Source of the DNA: Geoglobus ahangari
GTDB lineage: Archaea; Halobacteriota; Archaeoglobi; Archaeoglobales; Archaeoglobaceae
Length of the DNA stretch: 64,000 nt
Reading direction: 5' to 3'
NCBI RefSeq assembly: GCF_001006045.1
Contig: NZ_CP011267.1
Span: 1,612,001-1,676,000, forward strand
Position 1 is the first letter of the stretch; every line of letters begins with the position of its first letter. Shown piece by piece: positions 19,259 to 63,941 of the stretch. The notes below the pieces were generated by a model. It saw nothing but the letters and a program-made list of their open reading frames with translations. It did not search any database and was not told the DNA's origin. The translations under genes were made by a program, and so were the position numbers.

Positions 19259-20116
19259 TCACTTGTAGTGCTGGGGCTGGGGGTGGATCTCCCTTACAAG
19301 CTCGTAGTCGAACACGTCCCTCTCGCTAAGCCTCGAGCTTATGTATCCGAGCCTCTCCATCTCTCTGGAGAGCGAAATAGCACTTCTAACATACTCTTCT
19401 GGCAAAGAAGAGCAATACTTTGGACTGAGCTTGAGAATCCTCTCAACCACATCTTTCCCGAGCTCTCCTCTGAGGTACCTCTCGAGCAGGGATGCAGAGT
19501 GGTCTGGGGCCTCTCTCAGGATGTTGCTCGCCCACTCGTGCTTTATCAGGAAGTCCTTGATGCTCTCGAAGTTGTCCTCCAAGTATTTCCTTCTCACGAC
19601 GATGCCGTAGTTAGGGTTCCACGGCCACACGCTCTCCATGTCCACCGCAAGCCTTGCCCCGTACCTCATGGTCAGGACTGCGAGGTTCGGTGTTCCGCAC
19701 GCAAAGTCGAGCTTCCCGTCTATGAAATCATCAAATACCATCTCCGCCCATGGGTAGTTTACAACCTCAAAGTCCACGTGTTCCAGATAGCTCCTGAGAA
19801 TAACATCGTGGATGCTCCCTCTCGATGGGACACCCACCCTTTTCCCCTCAAGGCAATCTGGAAACGCTCCGCATTCCCTTCCTACTATTGCCGTCCCCTC
19901 CACGTGACCTCCGGCTATGCAGACCATGTCCAGACCCCTGTCGATTCCCAGAATCGCCGGGGTCAGTCCCACGTACGCGAGGTCAATCTCCCCGCGCTCC
20001 ATCGCGTTGATTATCGCCACACCGGTGCCGAAAATTCTCCACTCGGCTTTAACCACGTTCTCGATTCTCAGCATGTGTGATGTGTGGTAGAGGGTTGAGA
20101 GATATCCGATCCTCAT
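19259..20116 (-). CDS. DUF3834 protein (substrate-binding-protein fold, no signal peptide)
   Basis: A 285-residue protein resembling periplasmic-binding NMT1/THI5-like folds. It shows GTGVAIINAMERGEIDLAYV near 30-50 and GKRVGVPSRGSIHDV near 95. It has no signal peptide and is cytoplasmic by appearance. It overlaps the sulfopyruvate decarboxylase gene by four bases (ATGA). Proteins of this fold that stay in the cell include the enzymes MqnA, MqnD and THI5, so a catalytic or sensor role in the same pathway is possible. DUF3834 is described as related to solute-binding lipoproteins. The actual function is unknown. Confidence 0.78.
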   Translation of the reverse strand: MRIGYLSTLYHTSHMLRIENVVKAEWRIFGTGVAIINAMERGEIDLAYVGLTPAILGIDRGLDMVCIAGGHVEGTAIVGRECGAFPDCLEGKRVGVPSRGSIHDVILRSYLEHVDFEVVNYPWAEMVFDDFIDGKLDFACGTPNLAVLTMRYGARLAVDMESVWPWNPNYGIVVRRKYLEDNFESIKDFLIKHEWASNILREAPDHSASLLERYLRGELGKDVVERILKLSPKYCSSLPEEYVRSAISLSREMERLGYISSRLSERDVFDYELVREIHPQPQHYK

Positions 20117-21198
20117 CTGATTGCCTCCATGAACCTCTCCTTTATCTCAACGGGCTTCATGGGTATCACACCCACCCTCGCGTTTCCGGGCTTGGCGAGC
20201 GCGTGGATGAACACGCTCTCATCTTGTCCCATGGCGCTTATTATCTCTTCCGGAGTTGAAGCGCGGGTCACCTTCAGACCTGCAGCAAGCCCGAGCATTG
20301 TGAGGTCTGCCTTGACAGTCGCCGTCTTCTGGTTTCCGGTGCTTCCGTAAGCCGAGTTATCTATTGCTATGATCTTGAGCCCCTTCTCCGAGAGAAGGCC
20401 TGCAGTGAAGATGGTCGATGGGTTCATAAGTATCGAGCCGTCTCCGTCCAGCGACACCACCTCCCTCCCTGTCAGGTTAAGCCCGAGGGCGATTGAGGTG
20501 GCGAGGCCCATGCTTCCGAGCATGTAGAAGTTGGTCGGCTGGTCGAGAACCGAGTAGAGCTCTCTGCTCGGGTACCCTATGTTGGACACGACTATCTTCC
20601 CTTCCAAATGCTCCTTGATTCCCTCAATTATCTCGAACCTCGTGTACCTCGCCCTTCCACCGCTCACATTGACGCGAACATCCCCGAACTCTCTCGGCTC
20701 AAACTCGACATCATCTGCGGGACTCCAGATATCGGGCCTTAGCAGAACTGCAGTTATCCTCGCCTCCTCGTAGGCGGATGAGACAAGGTTCTCGAGGTCG
20801 CTGAGGTTCTTTCCAGAGAAGATCGCGTACTCTATGTCGAGGGCATCGAGCAGTTTTGGTAGTTTTTCTCCCATCGGAACCTGAGCCGGAATTTTCTCTC
20901 CAAAAACCCCCCTCCAGCTTATCAGGAGTGGCAGTGGGAGGGCGTAGGTTCTTGTGAGGCTCATCAGCGCGTTCACCATGTTTCCAAACCCTGACGACTG
21001 CACGAGGATGGCCGGCCTTCTACCGCCCATGAACAACCCTGCCGCTATGCCGACCCCTTCCTCCTCTCTCGCAAGGGGCACTGGCCTGAATGTTCTGGTG
21101 AGGACGCTTATCAGGAGTTTAACCCTCTCGCAGGGGAGGTACAGGATGTCGGTTATGCCAGCACGCCTTAGAACTCTGGCGACATCATCTTCTATCAT
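20113..21198 (-). CDS. comDE: sulfopyruvate decarboxylase, ComD-ComE fusion
   Basis: A 361-residue thiamine-diphosphate enzyme that should decarboxylate 3-sulfopyruvate to sulfoacetaldehyde, a step to coenzyme M. The first half follows Methanocaldococcus ComD closely (AREEEGVGIAAG near 44, PAILVQSSGFGNMVNALMS, FGEKIPAQVPMGE). The second half is ComE-like with the TPP loop GDGSILMNPSTI near 252. Phosphonopyruvate decarboxylases are close relatives. The adjoining cysteate-synthase-like gene favours the sulfonate substrate. It overlaps both neighbours by four bases, so the three products are probably made together. It is fused as in Methanosarcina. Confidence 0.86.
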   Translation of the reverse strand: MIEDDVARVLRRAGITDILYLPCERVKLLISVLTRTFRPVPLAREEEGVGIAAGLFMGGRRPAILVQSSGFGNMVNALMSLTRTYALPLPLLISWRGVFGEKIPAQVPMGEKLPKLLDALDIEYAIFSGKNLSDLENLVSSAYEEARITAVLLRPDIWSPADDVEFEPREFGDVRVNVSGGRARYTRFEIIEGIKEHLEGKIVVSNIGYPSRELYSVLDQPTNFYMLGSMGLATSIALGLNLTGREVVSLDGDGSILMNPSTIFTAGLLSEKGLKIIAIDNSAYGSTGNQKTATVKADLTMLGLAAGLKVTRASTPEEIISAMGQDESVFIHALAKPGNARVGVIPMKPVEIKERFMEAIR

Positions 21199-22373
21199 CC
21201 TATCAGCTCCAGATCCTCAGGACTTTCAACCCTGTAGTCTGGATCTGCCCTTCTGACTTTATAGTCTTTCTTCAGCCTGTCGAGGCCAGACCCGGTTATG
21301 TTTACGGCCACAACTCCGTCAAGCTCGATCTTCTCGAGGGCTGCAAGTGTAACTTCGGCCGCGGGAAACGGCTGAATTCCGAACGATCTCTTGAACTTCT
21401 TTCCAGCTCTTCTCGCCTCACTCTCTGAGACCCTGACCGCCTGTCCTCCACTCTCAGTCAGAACATCGTAAAGCCCACCCCTCTGGGAGTACAGGGGGCT
21501 TTTGTTCGAGAGAACCTTGGCATAGAGAACCTCGAGTGGATCAAGGCTGTATTCCGGAACGATCCGGCTTTTGCTCGCCCATGCGTCTGCAACCGGAGTG
21601 AACGGCTCGTTCTGCACCACCACGATTCTCGCACTCACATTCATCCTCTCCAGTCCATCGTGGAATGCTATCGCTCCCGTACCACTGCCAACGGACTGGA
21701 TGTAGAGGTCAGGTGGGCCAGCCTTTTCCATAAACGAGTATGCGAGGGTGGACAGAGCATCACGTCTTGCAAAACTCTTTCCTCCGCCCTCGTAAACTAC
21801 ATCGCCTTTGCGCTCTGAAAAAGCCCTCGCAAGCTCCATGGCCATATCATACCCGCCACTGACCCTGATCAGCGTGACGTTCTCGCTTCTCTCAACCTCG
21901 AACACGCACTCGAAGACTTTCTCGGGCACGAAGAGATAAACATGGACATCTGGAGTGTACTTTGCCAGCTCCATGAACGCATTGGCCGTGTTGCCAACTG
22001 AGGCGAGAGATACGTTCACTCTCCTCTCCTCAGCATATTTGAGGGACACTATGGTTTCAAGCTCCTTGAAGGTGCAGGTCTTCATCTCCACACCGAGTTC
22101 CGGGGCGTAGCCATGGAGTATGAAGTGTATTTCGGCTCCATACTCCTCGGAGTATTCCTCACTTCTGACTATTGCCGGATATTCTCTATAACCCTCTACC
22201 GCACCCGTCACCGGCAGATGACTGAGGTACCTCCACAGTCCGTCGCCTGACCACTCATTTTTCCCCTTGTACTCCGTTTTCACTATGGAATCGCATCCAT
22301 TTGGGCAGGAGAATGTGAATCCGCGGTCTTCAAACTTCTGACCGCATTCAGGACAGTAAAGCTCGTACTTCAT
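21195..22373 (-). CDS. cysteate synthase-like PLP enzyme (threonine-synthase family)
   Basis: A 392-residue PLP enzyme. The Methanosarcina homolog makes L-cysteate from phosphoserine and sulfite. It has an N-terminal zinc ribbon (CPECGQKF, CPNGC), then the PLP Lys in EMKTCTFKELE near 98, the SVGNTANAF loop near 125, the glycine-rich VGSGTGAIAF near 225 and INITGSGLDRL-like C-terminus. The segments QNEPFTPVADAW and YSQRGGLYDVL follow cysteate synthase rather than ordinary threonine synthase. It is the first gene of the operon. TATA-like CTTAAAAAC about 26 bases upstream predicts a leaderless start. Confidence 0.8.
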   Translation of the reverse strand: MKYELYCPECGQKFEDRGFTFSCPNGCDSIVKTEYKGKNEWSGDGLWRYLSHLPVTGAVEGYREYPAIVRSEEYSEEYGAEIHFILHGYAPELGVEMKTCTFKELETIVSLKYAEERRVNVSLASVGNTANAFMELAKYTPDVHVYLFVPEKVFECVFEVERSENVTLIRVSGGYDMAMELARAFSERKGDVVYEGGGKSFARRDALSTLAYSFMEKAGPPDLYIQSVGSGTGAIAFHDGLERMNVSARIVVVQNEPFTPVADAWASKSRIVPEYSLDPLEVLYAKVLSNKSPLYSQRGGLYDVLTESGGQAVRVSESEARRAGKKFKRSFGIQPFPAAEVTLAALEKIELDGVVAVNITGSGLDRLKKDYKVRRADPDYRVESPEDLELIG

Positions 22374-23109
22374 TAGCTTTCATTCGCTTCTGGTGTTTTT
22401 AAGACCTTTGCGAAAGCTCCTCTCCTTTGCAACCTCTGTTTCATCGCTCACAATTTTATTGGGTTGATTTTGTGCACCATATTTTAATATTCTTCTATTT
22501 ATACTTCTAAATCTATTAATAATTTTGTTGAAATATTTTTATATATTTAATTCTAAAGTTCGCTTTAGGATATAATAGTATTGCAAATTCTTTATTAAAA
22601 TTTTATAATACTAAAATTTCAAGTTATTTCAATTTATTAATAATAGGTTATTTTAATACTCCTATTTTAATCAGAGTGTGACACTTCTATTCCACATTTT
22701 TTGTGATAAAATTTTAGCAAAACGTGATGATTCTCGACTCTCGAGCATGAATGTGTAGTTACCCCCCCTTGAACACGCCGTGGTTACTGTATTCTTACAA
22801 TTATTGGAACAGCTGAATCCCCAAACCCACCAAAATTCGGATTGCCTAAATTTTGGCTATTACAGCTTTTTTGGAATAATTTTTTGAGACAATATTTATA
22901 AAATTAGAACGAGATAATATTGACTAATTAATGTTTAAGAGAATAATTATAAAACTAATAGTTTTTTAAATTTTAATATTACAAAATTAATAAATTTGAT
23001 TTGATATTGAGAAAATGAATTAATGTTAATTATTTTATTAAACTCAAATAATATTTGCAATTTCATCAAAATAAGCAAATGTGAGCGATTGCTAAAACCC
23101 CTAAGATAG
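22374..23109. other. 736-base AT-rich intergenic region
   Basis: This is the only gap longer than 300 bases without a gene. It is far richer in A and T than its neighbours, with long runs of A and T. The promoter of the coenzyme-M-type operon is near 22,397-22,406. An inverted repeat CCAAAATT/AATTTTGG lies at 22,830-22,856, and a run of seven C at about 22,762-22,768. I see no tRNA, CRISPR repeat or clear open frame. It could be a regulatory region, a decayed insertion or an origin-like element, but no cdc6 gene is near. Confidence 0.6.
22830..22856. repeat. inverted repeat in the AT-rich gap
   Basis: CCAAAATT and AATTTTGG are eight-base perfect arms separated by 11 bases. In RNA this would be a weak stem-loop. 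In DNA it could be a protein-binding site. Confidence 0.55.
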
Positions 23110-24147
23110 TCAATTCAACAGTTCTTTTGTGAGTGAACACCCATTGCACTTGGGGCACCCTGAGCCGAATTCTGGGACATCTATTCCCAGATCTTCCAGC
23201 GCAACTTTAAGTGAGTTTGCGAGTGAAACGTGGTAGTTCACATCCGGTCTTGGAAGGTTTGACGCCGGAGGAGGCCTGAAGGGGGCGATGAAGGGGTAAA
23301 CTGCGTGGCTGAGCATTGTTTTGACTCCTCTGATGATGCTGTCAGGGGACTCACCCAAGCCCGTGAGTAGCCAAGACGAGACGTTCCACTCACCAAAAAC
23401 ATCAACGGCAATCTTCCAGGACTTCAGGTACTCATCGAGTCCGGGCTTTCCCGGAACAACCTTCTCTCTCAACACTGGGTCGAAGGACTCCACGTGAATC
23501 CCGATCGTGTCAGCACCACTTTCGTACAGCATTTCTATGTATTTTCTCTCAGCAGGCTCGATCTGAACGTGAATCTGGATGTCGACCTCCCTTTTAATTG
23601 CTCTGACAGCCGATGCGAGGGAGAGAGCACCTTTGTCCCTTAGGTTCGTAGTCCCGGTTGTGAGTGTGAGATGCCTGCTTCTGTCTTCTTCGTAGGCCAG
23701 CTTTACCGCCTGAGCGAGCAGCTCGAGATCTTTGTCAACCACAGCGTTTTTCAAGTTGTCCTGAATGTTGCAGAACGAGCATTTCTTGCCAGTCTCCCAG
23801 TGAACACATCTCCTCGACACAGCAGACACGAGGGTGTCGTATCCGTCGAGAGCGACGAGCTTTCCAGCAGGAACTCCGCCGACTTTTTTGTGGTAGTAAT
23901 CGGCTTTCGGGAACTCGACAGCTCCTACTTTTTCATCCCCTCTGAACAGAATGTACTCTCCCTCTACATTTTCGATGTGATATGGAGAAAATGCCACATA
24001 GTGCTGGAGAGCAGGTGCCGAGACGACAGAGCCTGAAACCCTGAATCCGAGCCCTCCTGTTGGCCCGCCACCACCTTTCCTGAGCGGGCTTCTACCTGCC
24101 CTAACTCCGAGCGTCAGCAGCTCTATTTTTGTCTTCAAATCAAGCAT
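23110..24147 (-). CDS. radical SAM protein of the MSMEG_0568-like type
   Basis: A 345-residue radical SAM enzyme. The cluster Cys have unusual C-x8-C-x2-C spacing (RRCVHWETGKKCSFC near 120-135). The barrel reads HLTLTTGTTNLRDKG near 168, QIHVQIEPAE near 197 and GADTIGIHVESFDP near 215. A C-terminal C-x2-C-x2-C (CPKCNGC) may hold another metal. It overlaps the Mmp11-like gene by eight bases (ATG 24147). The reaction is unknown. Alternatives are a biotin-synthase-related or cofactor-linked SAM enzyme. Confidence 0.78.
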   Translation of the reverse strand: MLDLKTKIELLTLGVRAGRSPLRKGGGGPTGGLGFRVSGSVVSAPALQHYVAFSPYHIENVEGEYILFRGDEKVGAVEFPKADYYHKKVGGVPAGKLVALDGYDTLVSAVSRRCVHWETGKKCSFCNIQDNLKNAVVDKDLELLAQAVKLAYEEDRSRHLTLTTGTTNLRDKGALSLASAVRAIKREVDIQIHVQIEPAERKYIEMLYESGADTIGIHVESFDPVLREKVVPGKPGLDEYLKSWKIAVDVFGEWNVSSWLLTGLGESPDSIIRGVKTMLSHAVYPFIAPFRPPPASNLPRPDVNYHVSLANSLKVALEDLGIDVPEFGSGCPKCNGCSLTKELLN

Positions 24148-25081
24148 GCACTTCCACCGCTTTATCCGGGTCATCTGAATATGCTAAACTTGCAAGTGCT
24201 CCTATCAGCCCTCTCTCTCCAGTGATCTCGTAAACCTCGACTCCAGTTTTTTCAGCCACACTCTTCGCCTCCTCTATTGACACAACTCTCCTCTTCACCT
24301 GCAGAGCGTATTCTCTGAGCACTTCCGGAATCGTGATCCTCCTGTAGACCACCATGACTGTCTCATCGCTCAGAGTGTTCTCTTTCAGCCTTTTCCTGAA
24401 CTCCGAAACGAGCTCCTCTGCCCTGTCTGTTGCAAACGTCACAGATATCGAGACGCAGTTGGTGGTTTTTTCTGGGGCTTTTGTGTAGAGCTGGACTATG
24501 CTGTGGGAAAGGTAGTGCCCCAGACCCTCCTTTTCAAGCTTGTAGGCAATTTCGTTGACGAGTGACCACGTCGCACCTCCATCCTTGCTGTCCGTATCGT
24601 CAACTCCTATGACGATCTTCTCATACCTTTTAAGCCTGATCCTCGCTCTCCCGAGCTCGCTACCGCCACCGAGGCTCAGCACCTCTATTCCGTCAACACC
24701 CTCCGCGAGTCCCCTGCAGACTGTTGCCGCTATCCCGCCTCCGGCAAGCCCCGCATATGTGACTTCTATCCCGTTCTTCAGAACCCGAACCTCCTCAATT
24801 CCTGCACCCGCAATTCCAGGGATAAGCTTCAGTTCCACCCTTCCCTGCCTGAGGACGAACACGTTTCTCGCTCCCTCTCTCCTCGCTGAAACGACCAGCT
24901 CGCTGACTCTCGGGTAGTGGTACACCTCCCACGCTGCACCACCGTTGCACTTCCCCCTTGCATGGAACTCGTGGAGCTCGACCATCTCTCCGTCAGTCAT
25001 CGCCACAACCTTCTCGTATGGTGAGATCCACGGCACGTTTCCATACTTCTCGACAAGCTCGTCTTTGCTGAAGTACCTCAT
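24140..25081 (-). CDS. TiaS-like protein resembling methanogenesis marker 11
   Basis: A 313-residue protein. The C-terminal half starts with VIGVDDTDSKDGGATW near 156, the ATP-side motif shared with TiaS. NCVSISVTFAT near 207 follows. The N-terminal half has HARGKCNGGAAWEVYHYP and glycine-rich loops. I read it as close to methanogenesis marker protein 11, a family known chiefly from methanogens. The family assignment is by memory only. It is the first gene of a pair with the radical SAM protein, and its promoter has CTTAAATAAA about 26 bases upstream. Confidence 0.6.
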   Translation of the reverse strand: MRYFSKDELVEKYGNVPWISPYEKVVAMTDGEMVELHEFHARGKCNGGAAWEVYHYPRVSELVVSARREGARNVFVLRQGRVELKLIPGIAGAGIEEVRVLKNGIEVTYAGLAGGGIAATVCRGLAEGVDGIEVLSLGGGSELGRARIRLKRYEKIVIGVDDTDSKDGGATWSLVNEIAYKLEKEGLGHYLSHSIVQLYTKAPEKTTNCVSISVTFATDRAEELVSEFRKRLKENTLSDETVMVVYRRITIPEVLREYALQVKRRVVSIEEAKSVAEKTGVEVYEITGERGLIGALASLAYSDDPDKAVEVHA

Positions 25082-62459: not shown

Positions 62460-63941
62460 GTGAAGACTGTTGAGGAGATCAATAAAAAAATTGCCGAGGG
62501 TTCAGCAAACATCGTCACAGCCCTCGAGATGAAGGAGATCGTCAGAGAGCTTGGACCTGAAAAGGCCGCTGAAGAGGTGGATGTGGTAACCACAGGGACT
62601 TTTGGTGCCATGTGCTCCTCTGGAGTGTTCTTCAACTTCGGCCACTCCGACCCGCCGATAAAGATGCAGAGGGTCTGGCTGAACGATGTTGAGGCGTATA
62701 CGGGCGTGGCTGCTGTGGATGCTTATCTCGGAGTCACGCAGCTCTCCGAGACGCTCGGGATGGAGTACGGCGGAGGACACGTGATAGAGGACCTGCTGAG
62801 GGGCAAGGAGGTCGAGCTGAGGGCAACAGCTTACGGAACTGACTGCTACCCGAGGAAGGAGATCGTGACGGAGATAAGTCTGGACGACGTGAATCAGGCA
62901 ATAATGGTCAATCCGAGGAACGCTTACCAGAGGTACAGGGCAGCGACCAACTCATCCGACAGGATTCTCAAGACATACATGGGTACGCTTCTTCCAAACT
63001 TCGGAAACGTCACCTATGCGGGAGTTGGAGAGCTATCACCGCTCAACAACGACCCCGAGTACAGGACGATAGGAATAGGGACGCGCATATTCCTTGGTGG
63101 AGCGAAGGGGTACGTCATTGGCGAGGGCACGCAGCACGCACCGCCATTCGGGACGCTCATGGTTCAGGGCAACCTGAAGGAGATGGACGCCGAGTACATG
63201 AGAGCCGCGACGTTTCCGGGATACGGAACAACGCTTTTCGTGGGAATGGGAATCCCGATACCAATCCTTGACGCTGAGATGGCGAAAGCCACAGCCGTTA
63301 CGGACGATCAGATCGACACGGTCATAATTGACTTCGGGGTTCCGAGGAGGGACAGGCCCGTAATCAGGAAGGTCACGTACGCGGAGCTCAAGAGCGGAAA
63401 GGTGGAGATAAACGGAGAGGAGGTCAGGGTGTCTCCGCTCTCCAGCTACTACATGGCCAGAAAGATCGCCGAGGAGCTCAAGAGGCAGATCGAGAGGGGC
63501 GAGTTCTTCCTCTCGATGCCAGCCGAGAGCATCCCCACAAAGCAGGTGTTCAAGCCGATGAGGCAGAAGGAAATAAAGGTCGTCAAGAGCGTTATGAGCT
63601 CCCCCGCAATAACCGTGAAGCCTAATGAGACGATAGAGAGCGCCTCGAGGATACTCATAGAGAACGGGATAAACCACCTGCCCGTGGTTGATGAGCAGGG
63701 CAGGCTCGTTGGAATAGTGACGAGCTGGGACATAGCCAAGGCAGTCGCTGTAGGAAAGGCCAGAACGGTGGAGGAGATAATGACGAGGAAGGTCATCACC
63801 GCCTCACCCGACGACCCGATAGAGATTGCCGCGAGGAAGATGGATGCCAACAAGATCTCAGCGCTGCCCGTTGTCGATGCCAAGGGGAAGGTTCTGGGAG
63901 TTGTTAGCAGCGAGGATCTGAGCAAGCTGCTTGCGAGGTGA
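62460..63941 (+). CDS. COG1900/DUF39 sulfur-transfer protein with CBS pair
   Basis: A 493-residue protein. The first ~365 residues are DUF39/COG1900 (TTGTFGAMCSSGVFFNFGHS near 45, ATAYGTDCYPRKEI near 122), with candidate active Cys. CBS domains follow at about 370-490 (MSSPAITVKPNETIES, then ITASPDDPIEIAARKMD). The Methanosarcina relative MA1821 works with a NIL-ferredoxin protein to make homocysteine from aspartate semialdehyde and sulfide. A related role in coenzyme M synthesis has been suggested. The NIL-domain gene follows directly, giving the known pair. The start is GTG 62460, set by the TATA box. Confidence 0.9.
   Translation: MKTVEEINKKIAEGSANIVTALEMKEIVRELGPEKAAEEVDVVTTGTFGAMCSSGVFFNFGHSDPPIKMQRVWLNDVEAYTGVAAVDAYLGVTQLSETLGMEYGGGHVIEDLLRGKEVELRATAYGTDCYPRKEIVTEISLDDVNQAIMVNPRNAYQRYRAATNSSDRILKTYMGTLLPNFGNVTYAGVGELSPLNNDPEYRTIGIGTRIFLGGAKGYVIGEGTQHAPPFGTLMVQGNLKEMDAEYMRAATFPGYGTTLFVGMGIPIPILDAEMAKATAVTDDQIDTVIIDFGVPRRDRPVIRKVTYAELKSGKVEINGEEVRVSPLSSYYMARKIAEELKRQIERGEFFLSMPAESIPTKQVFKPMRQKEIKVVKSVMSSPAITVKPNETIESASRILIENGINHLPVVDEQGRLVGIVTSWDIAKAVAVGKARTVEEIMTRKVITASPDDPIEIAARKMDANKISALPVVDAKGKVLGVVSSEDLSKLLAR

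Follow-up and report, generated by a model that had tools for sequence, protein, structure and literature searches.

A three-gene operon of Geoglobus ahangari appears to represent the Methanosarcina-type (type 2) branch of coenzyme M (CoM) synthesis. It encodes a cysteate synthase-like enzyme (CS), a fused sulfopyruvate decarboxylase (ComDE) and a cytosolic protein with the SsuA/TauA fold (X). We regard this reading as reasonably probable, together with its further elements that X acts on the sulfonate, that CoM is the end product and that CoM serves as a methyl carrier in relatives. Judged from gene content, the set should make most or all of CoM. In archaea, CoM usually goes together with enzymes of methane and alkane metabolism, and it is the methyl carrier of methane-making organisms.

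The operon occupies positions 22373-19259 (minus strand) of the window, the whole 64,000-nucleotide stretch that was analyzed (Table 1). The open reading frame coordinates agree with the four-base overlaps given in the preliminary description at both junctions. G. ahangari 234T is an obligate Fe(III) reducer (PMC4600277), and its genome consists of one contig of 1,770,093 bp. No match to McrA (PF02249) was obtained in this complete genome, while the positive controls M. jannaschii and M. acetivorans were matched. The earlier placement of the operon outside an Mcr context, in an Archaeoglobales host, was thereby extended from the window to the genome.

Table 1. Coordinates (window positions) of the operon, its upstream neighbors and the unlinked COG1900 gene.
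Feature	Position	Strand	Detail
CS, cysteate synthase-like PLP enzyme	21195..22373	-	392 aa
ComDE, fused sulfopyruvate decarboxylase	20113..21198	-	361 aa
X, cytosolic SsuA/TauA-fold protein	19259..20116	-	285 aa
AT-rich intergenic region (736 bp); putative leader/promoter	22374..23109	.	alignment of four Geoglobus
Radical SAM protein, MSMEG_0568-like	23110..24174	-	234 bits, below cut-off 303.7
Methanogenesis marker protein 11 (MMP11)	24140..25081	-	TIGR03280 343.9 bits, above cut-off 255.8
L-aspartate semialdehyde sulfurtransferase (L-ASST; COG1900a with CBS)	62460..63941	+	PF01837 490 bits

The order CS-ComDE-X was also observed in four further Geoglobus genomes (G025, G026, G027 and G028), in JdFR-37, JdFR-21 and a Polytropus-like genome, and in bacteria of the Nitrospirota and Nitrospinota. 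Because it recurs in both relatives and these bacteria, the arrangement lies far beyond chance. A fifth Geoglobus genome (G029) carries ComDE-X on a 3.6-kb contig beginning just before ComDE, and X of Ferroglobus is encoded away from CS-ComDE. None of the three frames is interrupted, and overlaps and active-site motifs are retained at 57-70% identity across Geoglobus.

For CS, the best NCBIfam model was TIGR03844 (1.2e-74; 251.5 bits, below the cut-off of 324.9), and the sole PDB match by phmmer was cysteate synthase 9k3c (4.7e-51). A maximum-likelihood tree was calculated from 46 sequences, including 9k3c and 16 ThrC. A branch with 100/100 support separated all 16 ThrC from the cysteate synthases, and CS, nine other Archaeoglobi sequences and 9k3c were located on the cysteate-synthase side. 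The two ThrC paralogues of G. ahangari are separate genes, and both fell among the 16 ThrC. CS contains TCTFKE at the PLP lysine, a form of TC(T/S)FKE, and EGGG..ARRD; TC(T/S)FKE and EGG...ARRD are common to CS, 9k3c, and the ANME-2 and bacterial proteins, whereas ThrC has NP-SGSFKDR. Threonine synthase was ruled out for CS by this split and these motifs.

Scores with TIGR03844 decreased from ANME-2 (604 bits) through archaeon L192 (515), Nitrospirota (449) and the Polytropus-like genome (364.9) to Ferroglobus (287.8). On sequence grounds, the Archaeoglobaceae CS is the divergent end of a cysteate-synthase continuum, belonging to it by tree placement and motifs while scoring under the curated threshold. 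As the score lies below the TIGR03844 cut-off, its substrate specificity may have drifted.

ComDE scored 174.5 bits with the alpha model TIGR03845, above the cut-off of 147.95, and 202.6 bits with the beta model TIGR03846, just under the cut-off of 221.5. With the phosphonopyruvate decarboxylase model TIGR03297 it yielded 201 bits, far under the cut-off of 312.5. The scores were reversed for a control phosphonopyruvate decarboxylase from Nitrospinaceae, encoded beside a PEP mutase-like gene (TIGR03297, 394 bits), which was placed apart from ComDE on a very long branch of the tree. The tree and the control together rule out a phosphonopyruvate decarboxylase. Phylogeny thus sustained the preliminary assignment of both enzymes, one as cysteate synthase-like and the other as a fused sulfopyruvate decarboxylase. 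Their placement also supports the Methanosarcina-like route from phosphoserine and sulfite to sulfoacetaldehyde that had been predicted on that basis.

From these families we infer the following sequence of reactions. Sulfate would be converted to sulfite via Sat and AprAB, CS would form cysteate from O-phosphoserine and sulfite, an unspecific aminotransferase would convert cysteate to sulfopyruvate, and ComDE would release sulfoacetaldehyde. X, as a sulfonate-binding fold turned enzyme (as in Thi5 and MqnD) or as a sulfonate handler, would act on the sulfonate product, and CoM would be the end product. The supply of sulfite by Sat and AprAB is plausible because both are present in G. ahangari and DsrAB is missing (PMC4600277).

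The third gene had been described as DUF3834. This identification was not upheld, as the only Pfam hits at E<=0.001 were NMT1_2 and OpuAC, and the NCBIfam profile matched was SsuA_fam. In the AlphaFold model of X (mean pLDDT 92.1) the first strand occupies residues 2-5, and neither the N-terminal sequence nor the model contains a signal peptide or lipobox. The nearest structures found by Foldseek were a Staphylococcus ABC import ligand-binding protein, SsuA with MOPS or MES, and TauA, followed by Thi5 and MqnD. Six histidines (11, 71, 103, 193, 278 and 283) and two cysteines (66 and 235) are invariant among 29 archaeal and bacterial sequences.

X therefore shares with SsuA and TauA the fold (TM 0.74-0.81) and the SsuA_fam profile, but it differs from them in its biosynthetic operon, its invariant residues and the missing N-terminal signal expected of an ABC sulfonate-binding protein. 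A role as a transporter subunit was not supported, given the missing signal peptide and the position of the first strand. A separate set of binding protein, permease and ATPase genes follows X only in JdFR-21. Thi5 and MqnD, both cytosolic enzymes, provide a precedent for catalysis on this fold, although their identity to X is about 15-18% and their pathways are different, so that catalysis by X is hypothetical. The operon links a previously unlinked sulfonate-binding-type protein to CoM-type genes.

Among 59 Archaeoglobi genomes, CS was found at full length in 10, plus a contig-end fragment in G033, ComDE in 11, and X (at least 54%, full length) in 15. The 15 genomes with X comprise all 11 with ComDE, G033, and three Mcr-bearing Methanomixophus-type genomes, and MMP11 was above its cut-off in every one of them. 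Fisher tests over the 59 genomes gave 4.9e-9 for X with ComDE and 4.3e-9 for X with MMP11, values that ignore shared ancestry, which the co-occurrence counts partly reflect; gaps in metagenome-assembled genomes are also present in the set. McrA was detected in 7 of the 59, only one of which encodes ComDE, and no association between Mcr and ComDE was seen. In Mcr-bearing Methanomixophus-type genomes lacking ComDE and MMP16, X is paired with a radical SAM gene. In genome G052, X is reduced to a fragment adjoining such a gene.

The radical SAM gene upstream of the operon, on the same strand, is probably linked to it. This synteny is retained in Geoglobus G025, G026 and G027, and a radical SAM protein of about 26% identity is encoded immediately before X in three Methanomixophus genomes. 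The MMP11 gene, in turn, overlaps the radical SAM gene and is adjacent to the operon in G. ahangari. MMP11 scores above the curated cut-off were also recorded in Mcr-free Geoglobus, Ferroglobus and relatives. Within the intergenic region, a core of about 180 nt (about 22675-22885) with several TTCCA repeats is conserved in the four Geoglobus. A structured RNA was rejected there, as no Rfam match and no stable fold were found (folding z-score 0.31).

In a scan of named genomes, relatives of X were found in Methanothrix, ANME-2, Asgard, Nitrospirota and Nitrospinota. ComDE is encoded in 40 of the 42 X-carrying genomes outside Archaeoglobi, fused in the bacteria and split in Methanothrix and Asgard, and X adjoins CS and ComDE in the bacteria and in one archaeon. 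Within this set, COG1900 proteins are confined to Methanothrix, ANME and Asgard. Methanothrix and Asgard genomes have two COG1900 genes in addition to X; one of the two adjoins comE, where MMP16 is expected, and the MMP16 assignment in Methanothrix is by position and length. In Methanothrix, sulfite-reductase-like and ThiF-type genes are found near X, and at other Methanothrix and Asgard loci X has CysK, CysE or NifS nearby. These neighbors suggest a link of X to sulfur assimilation.

The established terminal CoM synthase is MMP16 (PMC12068725). With its model (ComF, TIGR03287, cut-off 363.95 bits), none of the 59 Archaeoglobi genomes scored above the cut-off, COG1900 matches there being L-ASST-like with CBS domains, and neither MMP16 nor any other COG1900 protein was found in the X-carrying bacteria. 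As MMP16 is absent, the last step would fall to L-ASST, to X or to something else.

L-ASST is a candidate for an alternative terminal enzyme. It is possible, if somewhat unlikely, that the operon leads to sulfoacetaldehyde, that L-ASST finishes CoM and that the part of X is limited to that of a cytosolic sulfonate-binding helper, sensor or carrier. Consistent with this, L-ASST is the sole COG1900 gene of G. ahangari, the nearest folds of X include binding proteins, and L-ASST is thought to compensate for the loss of MMP16 in M. acetivorans (PMC12068725). In JdFR-37 an L-ASST cluster is located about 2 kb from CS-ComDE-X; however, this is the one instance of such proximity, and a sirtuin gene lies in between. 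The G. ahangari gene is unlinked, 40 kb from the operon, and reaches just 174 bits with TIGR03287 against a cut-off of 364. Bacteria with CS-ComDE-X have no COG1900 proteins at all, so L-ASST is no general answer.

Conserved catalytic-type residues, a sulfonate-binding fold, the last position in the operon and universal presence where MMP16 is missing point toward X as a candidate for the last-step enzyme. X could hypothetically act as an alternative CoM synthase. It is not MMP16 itself, the folds being unrelated. A simple, mutually exclusive exchange of the two was weakened by Methanothrix and Asgard, which have X and an MMP16-type gene, and the presence of X in ComDE-free, Mcr-bearing Methanomixophus is not explained by replacement of MMP16.

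Relatives encode possible users of CoM. Clusters of MtaA-family proteins, a corrinoid protein and a RamA/AcsV-like activase occur without Mcr in Ferroglobus, three other Geoglobus and JdFR-37; in Ferroglobus the MtaA-family score was 353 bits, where the cut-off for CoM methyltransferases is 244. Where such an archaeal cluster was read at length, it also contained MtrH and an SsuABC-like transporter. Nitrospirota encode the same module immediately upstream of CS-ComDE, accompanied by DUF6951 and HdrD/cytochrome b-like genes. Its MtaA-family proteins likewise exceed the curated cut-offs for CoM methyltransferases, and its proteins are 53-57% (MtaA) and mostly 62-74% (corrinoid protein) identical to those of Ferroglobus. 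Because the MtaA-type module occurs without Mcr, and in Nitrospirota beside CS-ComDE, CoM is probably an Mcr-independent methyl carrier in Ferroglobus, other Geoglobus and Nitrospirota. In relatives it would be the methyl acceptor or donor of MtaA-type corrinoid methyltransferases, leading to MtrH and the methyl branch of the Wood-Ljungdahl pathway.

Seven Nitrospirota loci combine MtaA, an MtbC-like corrinoid protein, the activase, DUF6951, HdrD/cytochrome b-like genes and CS-ComDE, some module genes lying beyond the stretch visible in a given locus. By their gene content, these operons look like an undescribed bacterial CoM module. At a Ferroglobus locus (L310, 5695-12761) and in Geoglobus G027 (L312), MtaA, corrinoid protein, RamA and MtrH genes are followed by the SsuABC-like sulfonate transporter. 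Its binding protein appears to be a circular permutant, with the C-terminal part of the profile first.

A broader reading would join these observations into one Mcr-independent CoM system spanning both domains. CS, ComDE and X, the latter a new periplasmic-binding-fold CoM synthase replacing MMP16, would provide CoM for MtaA-corrinoid-RamA (and HdrDE-like) modules in Archaeoglobi and Nitrospirota. We consider it speculative and, taken as a whole, rather unlikely.

The genomes of G. ahangari, G025 and G026 contain no URO-D/MtaA or corrinoid methyltransferase proteins, and no CoM consumer was found in G. ahangari among McrA, MtaA/URO-D and corrinoid protein. As the methyltransferases are absent, CoM in G. 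ahangari would either act as a thiol in some other capacity or be a vestige. The preliminary description had left a choice between CoM for an unrecognised purpose and a sulfonate used elsewhere. It had missed that the gene context is common to relatives and bacteria with CoM methyltransferases.

A product other than CoM is distinctly unlikely. Sulfoacetaldehyde or cysteate would then be directed to isethionate, taurine, sulfoacetate or a sulfonolipid, for example as a solute or lipid headgroup. This would accord with the missing consumer and missing MMP16 in G. ahangari, and cysteate synthase also serves bacterial sulfonolipids (PMC11211663). However, ComDE would be superfluous for sulfonolipids. 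In relatives, MMP11 and CoM methyltransferases of the MtaA type follow the distribution of the operon, and in Nitrospirota it lies in linkage with genes for MtaA, a corrinoid protein and an HdrD-like protein. Very unlikely is a decaying remnant of ancestral methanogenesis without current function in G. ahangari: such remnants are known in Mcr-free Archaeoglobi (PMC9635834), and the methyltransferases present in sister genomes are missing from G. ahangari, G025 and G026, but the operon is intact and conserved across Geoglobus and also persists in bacteria, for which a past as methanogens is no option.

The presence of type-2 CoM genes in many Nitrospirota and in iron reducers that lack Mcr and can be cultured would mean that CoM is a methyl or redox thiol of more general use. 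X offers a concrete candidate for the step that forms CoM or handles the sulfonate in the absence of MMP16. Because Geoglobus and Ferroglobus are available in pure culture, the CoM hypothesis is directly testable. In the open-licence literature, no publication was found that treats genes for CoM synthesis in Geoglobus, Ferroglobus or Nitrospirota.

The Xanthobacter CoM pathway reportedly starts from phosphoenolpyruvate and employs other enzymes, whereas the Nitrospirota operons use CS-ComDE. Like that pathway (PNAS 2022, cited in PMC12068725), the operons would place CoM in bacteria without Mcr. Among archaea, Mnemosynellales (JdFR-21), Mcr-free Archaeoglobi with methanogenesis remnants, have been proposed to use CoM/CoB thiols (PMC9635834). 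JdFR-21 carries CS-ComDE-X, and the main text of that paper makes no mention of comDE or CoM biosynthesis. Among the closest known systems is the type-2 pathway of Methanosarcina acetivorans (MA3297 CS, MA3298 ComDE, MA3299 MMP16). G. ahangari differs from it in having X rather than MMP16 as the third gene, in lacking Mcr and in a CS that forms a divergent sister branch under the TIGR03844 cut-off. Both organisms share CS followed by fused ComDE in one operon, and the same chemistry would be expected.
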